Shown piece by piece: positions 875 through 62,123 of a stretch of DNA of 64,000 nt. Position 1 is the first letter of the stretch. Every line of letters begins with the position of its first letter. The notes beneath the pieces were generated by a model. That model did not search any database. It was not told the origin of the DNA and saw nothing but the letters and a program-made list of their open reading frames with translations. The position numbers and the translations under genes are program-made. Source of the stretch: Siphonodentalium dalli (Eukaryota > Mollusca > Scaphopoda > Gadilida > Siphonodentaliidae); assembly GCA_032622095.1 (NCBI GenBank), contig CP136064.1, forward strand, positions 197,313,948 through 197,377,947, written 5' to 3'.

Positions 875-1268
875 TTAACCCTTTACCCAACAGAACGGCC
901 CTGTGCCAATGCATTCTCTTATATATGCGAGTCGACCATAGGTCGCCTCGCATATATAAGAGAATGCATTGGCTTAACACATTCAAAATTATAAAATTGT
1001 TAAAGAATGTAAGAAAAAATGGTAAAAAAAGATTTTTTTTAGGCCAATGCATTCTCTTATATATGCGAGGCGACCTTATAATGGTCGACTCGCATATATA
1101 AGAGAATGCATTGGCACAGGGCATAACTGTAACTATCACAATGTGGTCAAGGAGCCGGTTCCAATGATATCCATATTTGTATGGTTCTATTGAGACAGAC
1201 CGAAGATATTTTAGGCTGTTGAAGCTTTATTTGGCCGACTTTGGCCGGTTTGTTGGGTAAAGGGTTAA
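875..1268. mobile_element. TTAA-flanked double-hairpin MITE (piggyBac-like), copy 1
   Basis: The ends are TTAACCCTTTACCCAACA and, inverted, TGTTGGGTAAAGGGTTAA, so the element has TTAA at both edges as in piggyBac target duplications. Inside are two long hairpins, about 906-973 and about 1044-1113, which are also inverted to each other. Each arm reads GCCAATGCATTCTCTT followed by ATATATGCGAG. They are bounded by CCCTGTGCC and GGCACAGGG. No coding capacity. Confidence 0.8.
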
Positions 1269-5887: not shown

Positions 5888-6261
5888 TTAACCCTTTGAG
5901 TGCCAGGTCGATTTTTGTATCAACCCATATACCCTGTGCCAATGCATTCTCTTATATATGCGAGTCGACCATAGGTCGCCTCGCATATATAAGAGAATGC
6001 ATTGGCCCAACATTTTTTTTTTTTACAATTTTTTACAATTTTAATAATTTATTCTTATATTCTTTAACCACAGGAGCTTGGAATTTGGTCAAAACCACTC
6101 TTTTATTGGCGGAACCACCACCCGGGACCAAAGGTGGTCCCGGGTGGTGGTTCCGCCAATAAAAGAGTGGTTTTGACCAAATTCCAAGCTCCTGTGCTTT
6201 AACAGACTTATTTTGTAGGTTTAGGGTCGATGAGATCGGCCCCTGGCACTCAAAGGGTTAA
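5888..6261. mobile_element. TTAA-flanked hairpin MITE with a different outer end
   Basis: The termini are TTAACCCTTTGAGTGCCAG and its inverse at 6243-6261, flanked by TTAA. The left half carries the same CCCTGTGCCAATGCATT hairpin as the element at 875 (about 5938-6005). The right half carries an unrelated GC-rich hairpin (6069-6196). Confidence 0.8.
6069..6196. repeat. 128-bp near-perfect palindrome
   Basis: Arms of about 61 bp starting CACAGGAGCTTGG and ending CCAAGCTCCTGTG, with a loop of about 6 bases around 6130-6135. The stem includes a GC-rich tip (CACCCGGGACC). It sits inside the TTAA element at 5888-6261. Confidence 0.9.
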
Positions 6262-6361: not shown

Positions 6362-6776
6362 TTAACCCTTTACCCAACAAACCGGGCCAAAAACGCCCAA
6401 ATAAAGCTTCAACAGCCTAAAATATCTTTGGTCTGTCTCAATAACACCATACAAATATGGATATCATTGGAACCGGTTCATTGACCGCATTGTGATGGTT
6501 ACAGTTATGCCCTGTGCCAATGCATTCTCTTATATATGCGAGTCGACCATAGGTCGCCTCGCATATATAAGAGAATGCATTGGCCTATACAAATCTTTTT
6601 TTTAACACTTTTTACTATTTTTTCTTATAATATTTTCTACATTCTTTGACAATTTGATCATTTTTAATATGTATTAAGCCAATGCATTCTCTTATATATG
6701 CGAGGCGACCTATGGTCGACTCGAATATATAAGAGAATGCATTGGCACAGGGCCGTTCTGTTGGGTAAAGGGTTAA
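6362..6776. mobile_element. TTAA-flanked double-hairpin MITE, copy 2
   Basis: Inverse orientation of the element at 875-1268: TTAACCCTTTACCCAACA at the left and TGTTGGGTAAAGGGTTAA at the right. Both CCAATGCATTCTCTT hairpins are present. The arms carry few differences from copy 1. Confidence 0.8.
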
Positions 6777-28914: not shown

Positions 28915-29158
28915 TTAAACTTCCATGAGCTTCCTGAAATTTTGCAAAAACCCTGTGCCACTGCATCCTCTTATATATGAAAGTCTCCCATAGGGAGCCT
29001 CGCATATATAAGATAACAATGTTTACCTTGACCTTGTAAGTCAGTGCATTCTCTGATATATGCGAGGCTCCCTATAGGAGACTCGCATAAATAAGAGAAT
29101 GCACTGGCACAGGATATTTAATGTTGCACCAGCGCTGCTCCCATCATGAAAGGGTTAG
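28915..29158. mobile_element. Diverged double-hairpin MITE (TTAA type)
   Basis: Both hairpins are present in altered form: CCTGTGCCACTGCATCCTCT, GCGAGGCTCCC and GGCACAGG. The outer ends are eroded (TTTTAAACTTCC and GAAAGGGTTA). Closest to the copy at 33587-33819. Confidence 0.65.
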
Positions 29159-30949: not shown

Positions 30950-31823
30950 TGATATAATAATAATATAGAGTATTTGTATAGCGCCATATCCCGTATGGCT
31001 CATGGCGCTGAACAATTCACACAAACGCAGTCACACACATTCACACTATAACATATACGCAATAAATAATATGCATGTATTTCAATAATTAAGTCTCCTC
31101 AACGTTTTCTGATGTTATTTGTCCGAAATGGGAGATGAATAGGTGAGTTTTTAGGGCCGATTTGAATGTTTCCAAACAGTCAGACTGTTTCACCTCTTTG
31201 GGAAGGTTGTTCCAAATGGTCGGCCCGTAGACCTCGAAAGAACGGCGACCAAAGTACATCAGATCTCGTTTAGGTACAACCATCGCATTCGCATCCTGTG
31301 ATCGAAGTGGTCGAGCAGGTACATATTTGACCAACAATGTATCAATATATGGTGGCAAAGCATTATCAATATCCGACTTTCTATAACACAAAGTAGCATG
31401 TTTGTACACAATTCGTTCAAATATGGGAAGCCAATGTAATTTATACAACAGTGGGGTAACATGATCAAATTTGCCTGCACGGCACACAATTTTTGCAGCA
31501 ATATTAACAATTTTTTGAAGTTTGTGAAGTTGATAATCTGGGAGTCCTGCTAAAATAGAATTACAGTAATCGATTTTGGATAACACAAATGAGGACATCA
31601 ATATTTGTGTGGATTGTTCGGAGATATATGGACGTACATGCGAAATGCGCCGGAGCTCCATATATAAGGACCTGCATAGGTTGCTGATGTGAGATGACAT
31701 TGAGAAGTTTTTGTCGATGGTCACACCGAGGTTTTTAATAACATCAGAAAATTCAATTACACTGTCGCCGATGAGCGACATATATATATACAGATATATA
31801 TCATAAAAGTGTGTCATTTCCAC
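30950..31823 (-). mobile_element. 5'-truncated CR1/L2-type LINE
   Basis: The open frame 31089-31823 encodes the C-terminal part of a non-LTR reverse transcriptase. Landmarks are VIKNLGVTIDKNFSM, SKIDYCNSILAGLP, LHWLPIFERIVYKH and FEVYGPTIWNNLPKEV, followed by a terminal SFK/LKTHLF-like block. The 3' UTR ends GCGCCATGAGCC, ATGGCGCTATACAAAT and an ATTATTATTATA tail near 30950, the CR1/L2-type tail. The catalytic FADD part and endonuclease domain are missing. The match starts at about 31800, where the 5' truncation lies. The remaining frame has no stop, so the insertion is moderately young. It is not a host gene. Confidence 0.9.
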
Positions 31824-33586: not shown

Positions 33587-33819
33587 TTAACCCTTCCATG
33601 ACTGGAGCTTCCTGAAATGTTACGAAAACTCTGTGCCAAAGCATTCTCTTCCGATAGGGAGCATCATATATAAGAGAATACACTGGTCTAACAATATTTA
33701 CCTTAACCATGTAAGCCAGTGTACATTCTCTTATATATGCGAAGCTTCCTATGGGAGACTTGCATATATATGAGATTGCACTGGCACAGGATCTTTAATG
33801 CTGCACCGAAAAGGGTTAA
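33587..33819. mobile_element. TTAA-flanked double-hairpin MITE, third end type
   Basis: Begins TTAACCCTTCCATGACTGG and ends AAAAGGGTTAA, with TTAA on both sides. The hairpin cassette is diverged (CTCTGTGCCAAAGCATTCTC and CACTGGCACAGG) and the left hairpin is shortened. Confidence 0.7.
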
Positions 33820-61527: not shown

Positions 61528-61702
61528 GTAAGTTGCCAAACAAAAAATAGAATACCTGGCCGAAAATGCATGTATATTAGAATATATGTGAAGGCACTGG
61601 CTTACTATGACATGTTCATATTTTCGTATGTGAGCGAAAACAAATAAGTTTCTATCGAAATTTTACGATCGGAATGGCAATATGTGACCCGCCATATCAA
61701 AT

Positions 61703-62123
61703 CCAGTCGGAAGTCGGGATTTTTTTTTACCATGTGCCAATGCATTCTCTTATATATGCGAGTCGACCATATGTCGCCTCGCATATATAAGAGAATGCAT
61801 TGGCCTAACAATTTTTTATCATGTTTTTTAAATAAATGTTTCTTACAATTTTTAGGACATAAAATAAAAAAACATCCATTACCCTGCAGGGAGCCCCACA
61901 CATATATAGAAGCATATAGAAGAGTGTCGTCTGCTCATGTTTGTCTGGGGCTCTGTATGGGTGAAATTATAAAATTGTTAAAGAATACAAGAACAAATTA
62001 TTAAAATTGTAAAAAATTGTTAGGCCAATGCATTCTCTTATATATGCGAGGCGACCTATGGTCGACTCGCGTATATAAGAGAATGCATTGGCACAGGGTA
62101 AACAAATCCCGACTTCCGACTGG
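61703..62123. mobile_element. Double-hairpin MITE with CCAGTCGGAAGTCGGGAT ends
   Basis: The outer inverted repeats are CCAGTCGGAAGTCGGGAT and its inverse. The same CCAATGCATTCTCTT hairpins as at 875 lie at about 61735-61804 and 62022-62091, bounded by CATGTGCC and GGCACAGGG. The spacer between hairpins is longer than in other copies (about 215 bp). No TTAA at the edges. It lies in the intron between the two exons at 61404 and 62234. Confidence 0.75.

Follow-up and report, generated by a model that had tools for sequence, protein, structure and literature searches.

The two facing hairpins and the AT-rich spacer between them are one core that is common to at least four families of non-autonomous DNA transposons. 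This core lies inside families A, B, C/D and E, which confirms a first-pass annotation of the sequence that had described a cassette with different outer ends. The carriers differ in their ends and in their target flanks, the stems exist as two types related by compensated changes, and in a pooled sample the stems vary less than the flanks. We propose, with a probability of about 0.6, that these elements are a modular MITE group in which a palindromic core is combined with four or more sets of ends, is moved by several transposases and is retained through a benefit in cis. The core is laid out as CCCTGTG, hairpin, AT-rich spacer, hairpin and CACAGGG; under this proposal, piggyBac-type enzymes would carry the TTAA families A, B and C/D, and a different transposase would carry family E.

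In the element at position 875 of the window (the whole 64-kb stretch of DNA analysed here), two facing hairpins of ~67 bases stand either side of the AT-rich spacer and are bounded by CCCTGTG and CACAGGG. The cassette copies of the window and their parts are as follows.

875..1268, forward strand: complete family A element, TTAACCCTTTACCC ... GGGTAAAGGGTTAA, with the full double-hairpin core
899..1121, no strand assigned: common core of the 875 copy, comprising CCCTGTG, hairpin 1, AT-rich spacer, hairpin 2 and CACAGGG
906..937, forward strand: arm 1 (outer, ends GAGTCGACC)
941..972, forward strand: arm 2 (inner), complementary to arm 1 except for one T.C mismatch
973..1043, forward strand: AT-rich spacer, related to the spacers of B, D and E (spacer comparison)
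1044..1075, forward strand: arm 3 (inner)
1083..1114, forward strand: arm 4 (outer)
5888..6261, forward strand: family B element, TTAACCCTTTGAGTGCC ... GGCACTCAAAGGGTTAA, with one hairpin at 5939-6005
6362..6776, reverse strand: second family A element, complete, in opposite orientation, with hairpins at 6517-6583 and 6679-6745
28915..29158, forward strand: degraded family C element with stem type S2 (GAGTCTCCC), ends placed by eye
33587..33819, forward strand: degraded family C element, TTAACCCTTCCATGACTGGAGC ... AAAAGGGTTAA, right end placed by eye
61684..62123, forward strand: family E element (GTGACCCGCCATATCAAATCCAGTCGG...), right end shortened, with hairpins at 61737-61803 and 62025-62091
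61889..61953, forward strand: a further module inside the spacer of family E, GGGAGCCCC ... GTCTGGGGCTC, extent approximate

The cassette is present at all six places listed in the first-pass annotation, with two hairpins at 875, 6362 and 61703 and one at 5888; the copies at 28915 and 33587 are degraded and belong to the second stem type. For the copy at 61703 the cassette stands but the start had to be moved, since the family end GTGACCCGCC begins at 61684; the outer part of the right end of this element is missing. Matches to the arm motif CCAATGCATTCTCTT with up to two mismatches number 18 in the window compared with 0.34 expected from shuffles, and CCCTGTGCC occurs seven times compared with 0.19 expected.

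Two other regions of the window were recorded as separate observations. Repeated blocks between 36352 and 47606 include a 160-aa frame that is present at both 38572 and 45928 and a 21-base tandem repeat that recurs at four places (37972, 40205, 45328 and 47560), suggesting local duplications. A frame resembling the C-terminal part of a LINE reverse transcriptase, judged by eye from its sequence, lies at 31089-31823.

The window belongs to an animal genome of 2.23 Gb in nine contigs. A genome-wide search with the arm, as advised earlier, was run with the exact 35-base outer arm GTGCCAATGCATTCTCTTATATATGCGAGTCGACC and revealed enormous repetition beyond the window (120,056 matches; 0 for the reversed-pattern control). 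A 25-base hairpin-tip pattern, with two bases allowed at each of four open positions, gave 128,180 matches (control 0). Words from the flanks outside the hairpins occur 34,645 times for family A, 11,796 for B, 6,780 for C and 4,970 for E, with 0 matches for each reversed control. Cassette elements are also found in large tandem arrays (G000:C1:735836-785755 and C1:820021-920861), whose regular match spacing indicates periods of ~14.56 kb and ~11.17 kb.

The consensus sequences of families A, B and C all begin with TTAACCCTT, which is the terminal CC[C/T]T motif inside TTAA of piggyBac-type elements. The outer ends had been called unrelated, and this holds for the family at 61703 but not for TTAACCCTTTACCC, TTAACCCTTTGAGTG and TTAACCCTTCCATG, which all start with TTAACCCTT. 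In family A, TTAA is found on both sides in 32 of the 38 copies with both ends found (40 fetched; the 38 include L036), and TTAA target sites of B, C and D were seen by eye and left uncounted. Family E starts with GTGACCCGCCATATCAAATCCAGTCGG and has ATAT-like flanks: among the 16 of 20 fetched copies with both ends, 12 have four identical flanking bases (11 ATAT, one AATT), three have unequal flanks (ACAT/ATAT, AAAT/ACAT and AGAT/ATAT), and one (L125) has ATAT on the left and TTAA on the right, after an altered right end. None of these 16 copies has TTAA on both sides. Descent of all copies from one ancestral end by simple divergence, the case that the first-pass annotation had set against a cassette, is therefore at odds with the data, because family E differs in both its end and its flanks.

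Among copies picked by flank alone, the core adjoins the family end in 40/40 copies of A, 20/20 of B, 15/20 of C and 20/20 of E, under a lenient test that accepts, at a distance of up to 60 bases (140 in the case of A), either an arm with no more than six mismatches or a fragment of the arm 10-12 bases long. Forty loci picked by exact stem (20 + 20) carry A, B, E or C-type ends in all cases except L013, L147, L149 and L154; L149 and L154 have identical sequence over the 90 bases preceding the core. A further form, D, defined on L157, combines C-type ends with the S1 stem and a long spacer. D-type scoring was obtained for two of the 40 stem-picked loci (L005 and L157), with both ends visible in L157 only. 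Cassettes and ends have thus been re-assorted, as the suggestion of cassette swapping implied, since C-type ends occur with S2 (form C) and with S1 (form D), and S1 is combined with four sets of ends (A, B, D and E).

The spacers point to the same common core. When six spacers drawn from A, B, D and E were compared pairwise, at most one of 200 shuffles scored as high as the true pair in 12 of the 15 comparisons (z 3.3 to 14.1); the shuffles are a simple control in which two-base blocks were moved. The three weak pairs all involve the E_L113 spacer (z 1.6, 1.7 and 2.7), and the short C spacer resembles none of the A, B, D and E spacers (z at most 1.5). The same 32-base arms are present in the A, B and E consensus despite their different ends, so that the families resemble one another more in the interior than at the ends. 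This suggests that the block, rather than the ends, is what is kept.

A possible source of new combinations is preserved in one family B copy (L133). Here, half a core is followed by TTAACTCTTTCAGTGCCAGACTTATTTTG, an inner B-type end that gives this copy a second, internal TTAA end; other B copies have TTTAACAGACTTATTTTG at the same point, which looks like a trimmed inner end. From its sequence, we read L133 as the probable record of a nested TTAA insertion, in which a B-type element entered the spacer of a core-bearing element. The composite would then have transposed by means of an outer end and an inner end, retaining only half of the core, and the half cassette of the B copies would be explained by this insertion. 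Re-assortment may have proceeded mainly in this way, by insertion of one MITE into another and subsequent transposition with one old and one new end, with recombination within the palindromes possibly contributing. The module nested in the family E spacer was also recognised by eye in some B copies. Separately, L133 contains at 1223-1441 another TTAA family of MITEs (TTAACCCTTTATGGAGCCCCAGACAGAGAG), with several closely spaced ends, and its end and interior resemble the family E nested module by eye.

Because the ends of A, B and C are of the TTAA type, ordinary piggyBac-type transposition can account for the mobility of these families, and recognition of the hairpins is not required. The genome encodes long open piggyBac transposase frames (128 matches above the Pfam cut-off, with some genes matched twice as separate fragments). 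In L136/L138, the end located upstream of the open frame (TTAACCCTTTAGCCCGCAATCCGGCC) resembles the A end, and an end in L144, which does not clearly belong to the transposase gene of that locus, resembles the B end. Among the 20 piggyBac loci examined (10 + 10), there was no transposase-bearing element with A, B, C or E ends and no identical pair, and the core was absent from all of them.

Better conservation of the stems than of the ends, a further claim of the first-pass annotation, is borne out among source lineages in the pooled sample. This sample comprises 70 copies (37 A, 18 B and 15 E) picked by a flank word of 20-26 bases, all from the first 41 Mb of contig C1 and with few variable sites; the selecting word and CpG sites were excluded from the variant counts. 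Shared variants were found at 5 of 280 stem sites versus 22 of 258 flank sites (p 0.0005), and private mutations at 62 of 6,484 stem bases versus 60 of 7,178 flank bases (p 0.47). Two A copies (L050 and L055) are misaligned in arm 3 and are the source of 13 of the 23 private changes in A; without them the counts are 3/280 versus 21/258 for shared variants (p 7e-5) and 49/6,264 versus 60/6,872 for private mutations (p 0.63). By these counts, flanks carry approximately five to eight times as much variation shared between copies as stems do. Taken individually, family A (37 copies) gives p 0.057, or p 0.017 without the two misaligned copies, family B gives p 0.016, and family E has shared variants at 0/112 stem versus 2/76 flank sites (p 0.16). 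Rows dropped were L053 and L057 (left end not found) and L036 (flanks identical to those of L033) for A, L085 and L086 (flanks identical to those of L082 and L083) for B, and L111, L123, L124, L127 and L129 (5/20, both ends not found by script) for E, whereas L125 was retained in the E alignment despite its altered right end. Family C, with both ends in 12/20 copies, was used for structure only, and the loci picked by exact stem (L001-L020 and L146-L165) were kept out of the conservation counts.

Shared variation is low in the stems and private mutation is equal to that of the flanks; the stems are therefore conserved among the amplifying source copies and are not shielded from mutation. After insertion they decay like the rest of the element, and in the lineages that yielded several copies they are nearly unchanged. 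This could be the trace expected from selection on amplifying copies, and a young common origin of the core could also lower shared variation. We regard a founder effect alone as possible but rather unlikely. It would hold that a young S1 core was caught quickly by several sets of ends and hitch-hiked with them, the hairpins being idle and the core younger than the ends, and it would accommodate the equal private mutation of stems and flanks, the lack of compensation in S1 copies (below) and the uniformity of the tips: 98 of the first 100 tips listed, tandem-array copies included, are S1, and the other two are an S2 tip and a tip with a single change. However, the spacer belongs to the same core and should be equally young, yet it is rich in shared variants in both A (16/81 sites versus 4/112 in stems, p 0.0005) and B (26/72 versus 1/56). 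This variability speaks against youth alone, but AT-rich runs are less reliable in both alignment and mutation, which calls for care. The corresponding E comparison (84/216 shared sites) was set aside, as the nested module occurs in either orientation and its columns are unaligned. That the older S2 type retains the same hairpin and the same mismatch also speaks against a founder effect alone.

The S1 and S2 consensus sequences differ at 4 of 67 positions; these form two base pairs, and in each the change is compensated (G-C to T-A, A-T to C-G). The T.C mismatch is kept in both types, with five pairs between it and the loop, and is present in 67/69 distinct S1 and 11/12 distinct S2 hairpins oriented by their flanks. 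In the comparison of the two types and their compensated changes, hairpins were oriented by the mismatch itself, so that a mismatch count made in this way is biased; the count given here was repeated with flank orientation. In S1 hairpins, 0/94 single changes are compensated in the partner arm, and in S2 hairpins 12 cells are compensated, 101 are one-sided and 3 are broken on both sides. Owing to the lack of compensation in S1 and the mostly one-sided changes in S2, the structure is not upheld copy by copy, and the young type S1 is without sign of ongoing correction. These counts also bear on self-templating, in which the palindrome would correct itself or exchange its arms by template switching during replication, so that arms stay alike and compensated changes arise without selection. 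The compensated differences at the S1/S2 tips are neighbours, as a template switch at the tip would give, and the 12 compensated S2 cells as well as internal deletions and extra tandem hairpins (L094, L100 and L035) are consistent with such a process. Nevertheless, we consider it unlikely, given that the T.C mismatch persists in 78/81 distinct flank-oriented hairpins and that none of the 94 private S1 changes was copied to the partner arm.

A four-arm DNA or RNA form had been envisaged for the cassette, but the lowest-energy single-strand fold is instead a single long hairpin, formed by pairing of arm 1 to arm 4 and of arm 2 to arm 3. This fold reaches -102.7 kcal/mol as DNA (z -25.8) and -154.1 kcal/mol as RNA (z -24.0), and the two-hairpin form scores -67.7 and -122.8, respectively. 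The strong RNA fold and the near-perfect stems of 32 bp with 3-base loops would suit a source of siRNAs or piRNAs, or a decoy by which the elements escape silencing. We think this improbable, as any long inverted repeat would fold equally well, and the window contains no Rfam family at gathering score.

It is similarly hard to credit that the cassette is itself mobile, with ends CCCTGTGCC/GGCACAGGG, and was inserted into other MITEs: by eye, the common part does have identical starting bases, CCCTGTG / CACAGGG, in all of A, B, C, D and E, and CCC...GGG resembles piggyBac-type ends, but TTAA lies directly 5' of CCCTGTGCCAATGCATTC at only 328 places versus 120,056 outer arms, two of the listed places are E copies (L119 and L127), and the core was rejected as a TTAA element in its own right on this count. 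Nor do core-free carriers favour a mobile cassette. Patterns with the family ends joined found 9 places for A (gap of at most 28 bases), all with core remnants, and 3 for E (gap of at most 30 bases), two with remnants and one ambiguous; there is consequently no usable empty site among these candidates, which were defined by exact matches to the end words across a short gap, so that other forms would escape the patterns.

For the modular MITE group favoured here, the conservation of the stems suggests that copies with intact hairpins would amplify better in cis and that the core would be retained for this reason. The benefit would most likely operate via a DNA structure or a bound factor that aids transposition or repair, rather than via a coding or host function. 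Judging from sequence, a cis-acting role in transposition is our best guess for the core. A stronger version, which we put forward tentatively and hold to be doubtful, is that the double hairpin is a transposase-independent amplification module, i.e. a cis-acting DNA structure that would raise the copy number of any MITE carrying it, with selection among copies preserving both the T.C mismatch and the stem around it as ends, target sites and transposases turn over. The case bears on why a few MITEs attain copy numbers in the tens of thousands. One core with several end sets, and with other target sites in one family, separates what a transposase needs (the ends) from a possible aid to amplification (the core), and swapping ends and cores makes the question of amplification testable. 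The elements also illustrate nested insertion as a route to new element families.

A second palindromic element was observed alongside the cassette. It is near-perfect, 5.5-5.9 kb long (L168:1270-6789 and L169:1115-6911; also in L132, L167, L170 and L171) and has an arm identity of 97.1% in L168 and 96.7% in L169. Its ends are TG...CA, and 6-base target duplications (GCCAAT, ATGGAA, CCGATT and GTGGAC) were identified by eye in four copies. These ends and duplications suggest an integrase of the retrovirus type, possibly Polinton-like. The element carries a gene of the Bcl-2 family, matched by PF00452 in two fragments (E 1.5e-9 and 9.6e-11), and a glutamine-rich frame that looks C2H2-like by eye. 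The Bcl-2 protein has 152 genome-wide matches, partial ones included, with many intact frames at 95-99% identity; the string 'bcl' does not occur in the passages of PMC11071296 checked for parallels to this element. A family E end and outer arm lie inside the palindrome (L123, L124, L132, L167 and L168-L171), and in L132, L167 and L168 a (CGG)n-rich stretch directly follows the arm, where the hairpin tip would be. In L168, the Bcl-2 palindrome has its insertion point at 1270, within a cassette that has a C-type end; the target (GTGCCAATGC) lies in an arm of that cassette, and the order of events can be read from this position.

The arm sequence had no match in the open-access literature text searched. 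The nearest published case of MITEs with a common interior and different ends is the CMITE group of corals (Wang et al. 2010, PMC2872659), which is described there as TTAA piggyBac-type MITE families with CCCTTT-like ends, differing terminal repeats and tandem arrays. The two groups agree in their TTAA sites, CCCTTT-like ends that differ between families, tandem arrays and an interior that is better conserved than those ends. The CMITE authors proposed a role in transposition for the interior and pointed out that searching with the interior biases its comparison with the ends (PMC2872659); this bias is avoided here because copies were sampled by flank alone. The two groups differ in several respects. 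The CMITE interior is a 75-base region, and 'hairpin', 'stem' and 'palindrom' are absent from the main text of that paper, whereas the present core is a double palindrome; the 60-base CMITE query and the present core are unlike, as judged by eye (PMC2872659). CMITEs were estimated at ~1,600 elements in one species, and the cassette reported here is some forty times more abundant (128,180 tips, at most two per complete element). CMITEs were reported with TTAA target sites, whereas one carrier family here is without TTAA, and, unlike in the CMITE description, the present core has two compensated stem types and a fixed mismatch (PMC2872659).

Similar modularity has been described for the highly conserved domains of SINEs and for MER6, a MITE chimera with the V domain (Luchetti et al. 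2019, PMC6887750). As in the present families, a central domain is kept while heads and tails differ, and module exchange is one of the reasons proposed; however, the carriers in that account are mostly SINEs and the V domain is not described as palindromic, whereas the carriers here are DNA transposons. The pearl MITEs of bivalves (PMC5139131, 2016) likewise have a modular, changeable interior, and DTC84 has a conserved palindrome near the repeat junction, but the pearl interior contains satellite-like tandem repeats as opposed to an inverted double hairpin with an AT-rich spacer. The transposases of piggyBac and piggyBat bind through their cysteine-rich domains to palindromes near the transposon ends, and extra subterminal sites can restrict activity (PMC11707139). 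The palindromes here are also close to the ends (hairpins ~30-55 bases from the tip, and ~150 on one side of A). Those of piggyBac and piggyBat are ~14-19 bases long, whereas ours have 32-base arms arranged as hairpins and are common to families with different ends (PMC11707139). With regard to the literature covered by these sources, MITE families with different ends and a conserved interior were known already; the present group differs in the palindromic nature of the interior, its scale and its sharing with a non-TTAA family.
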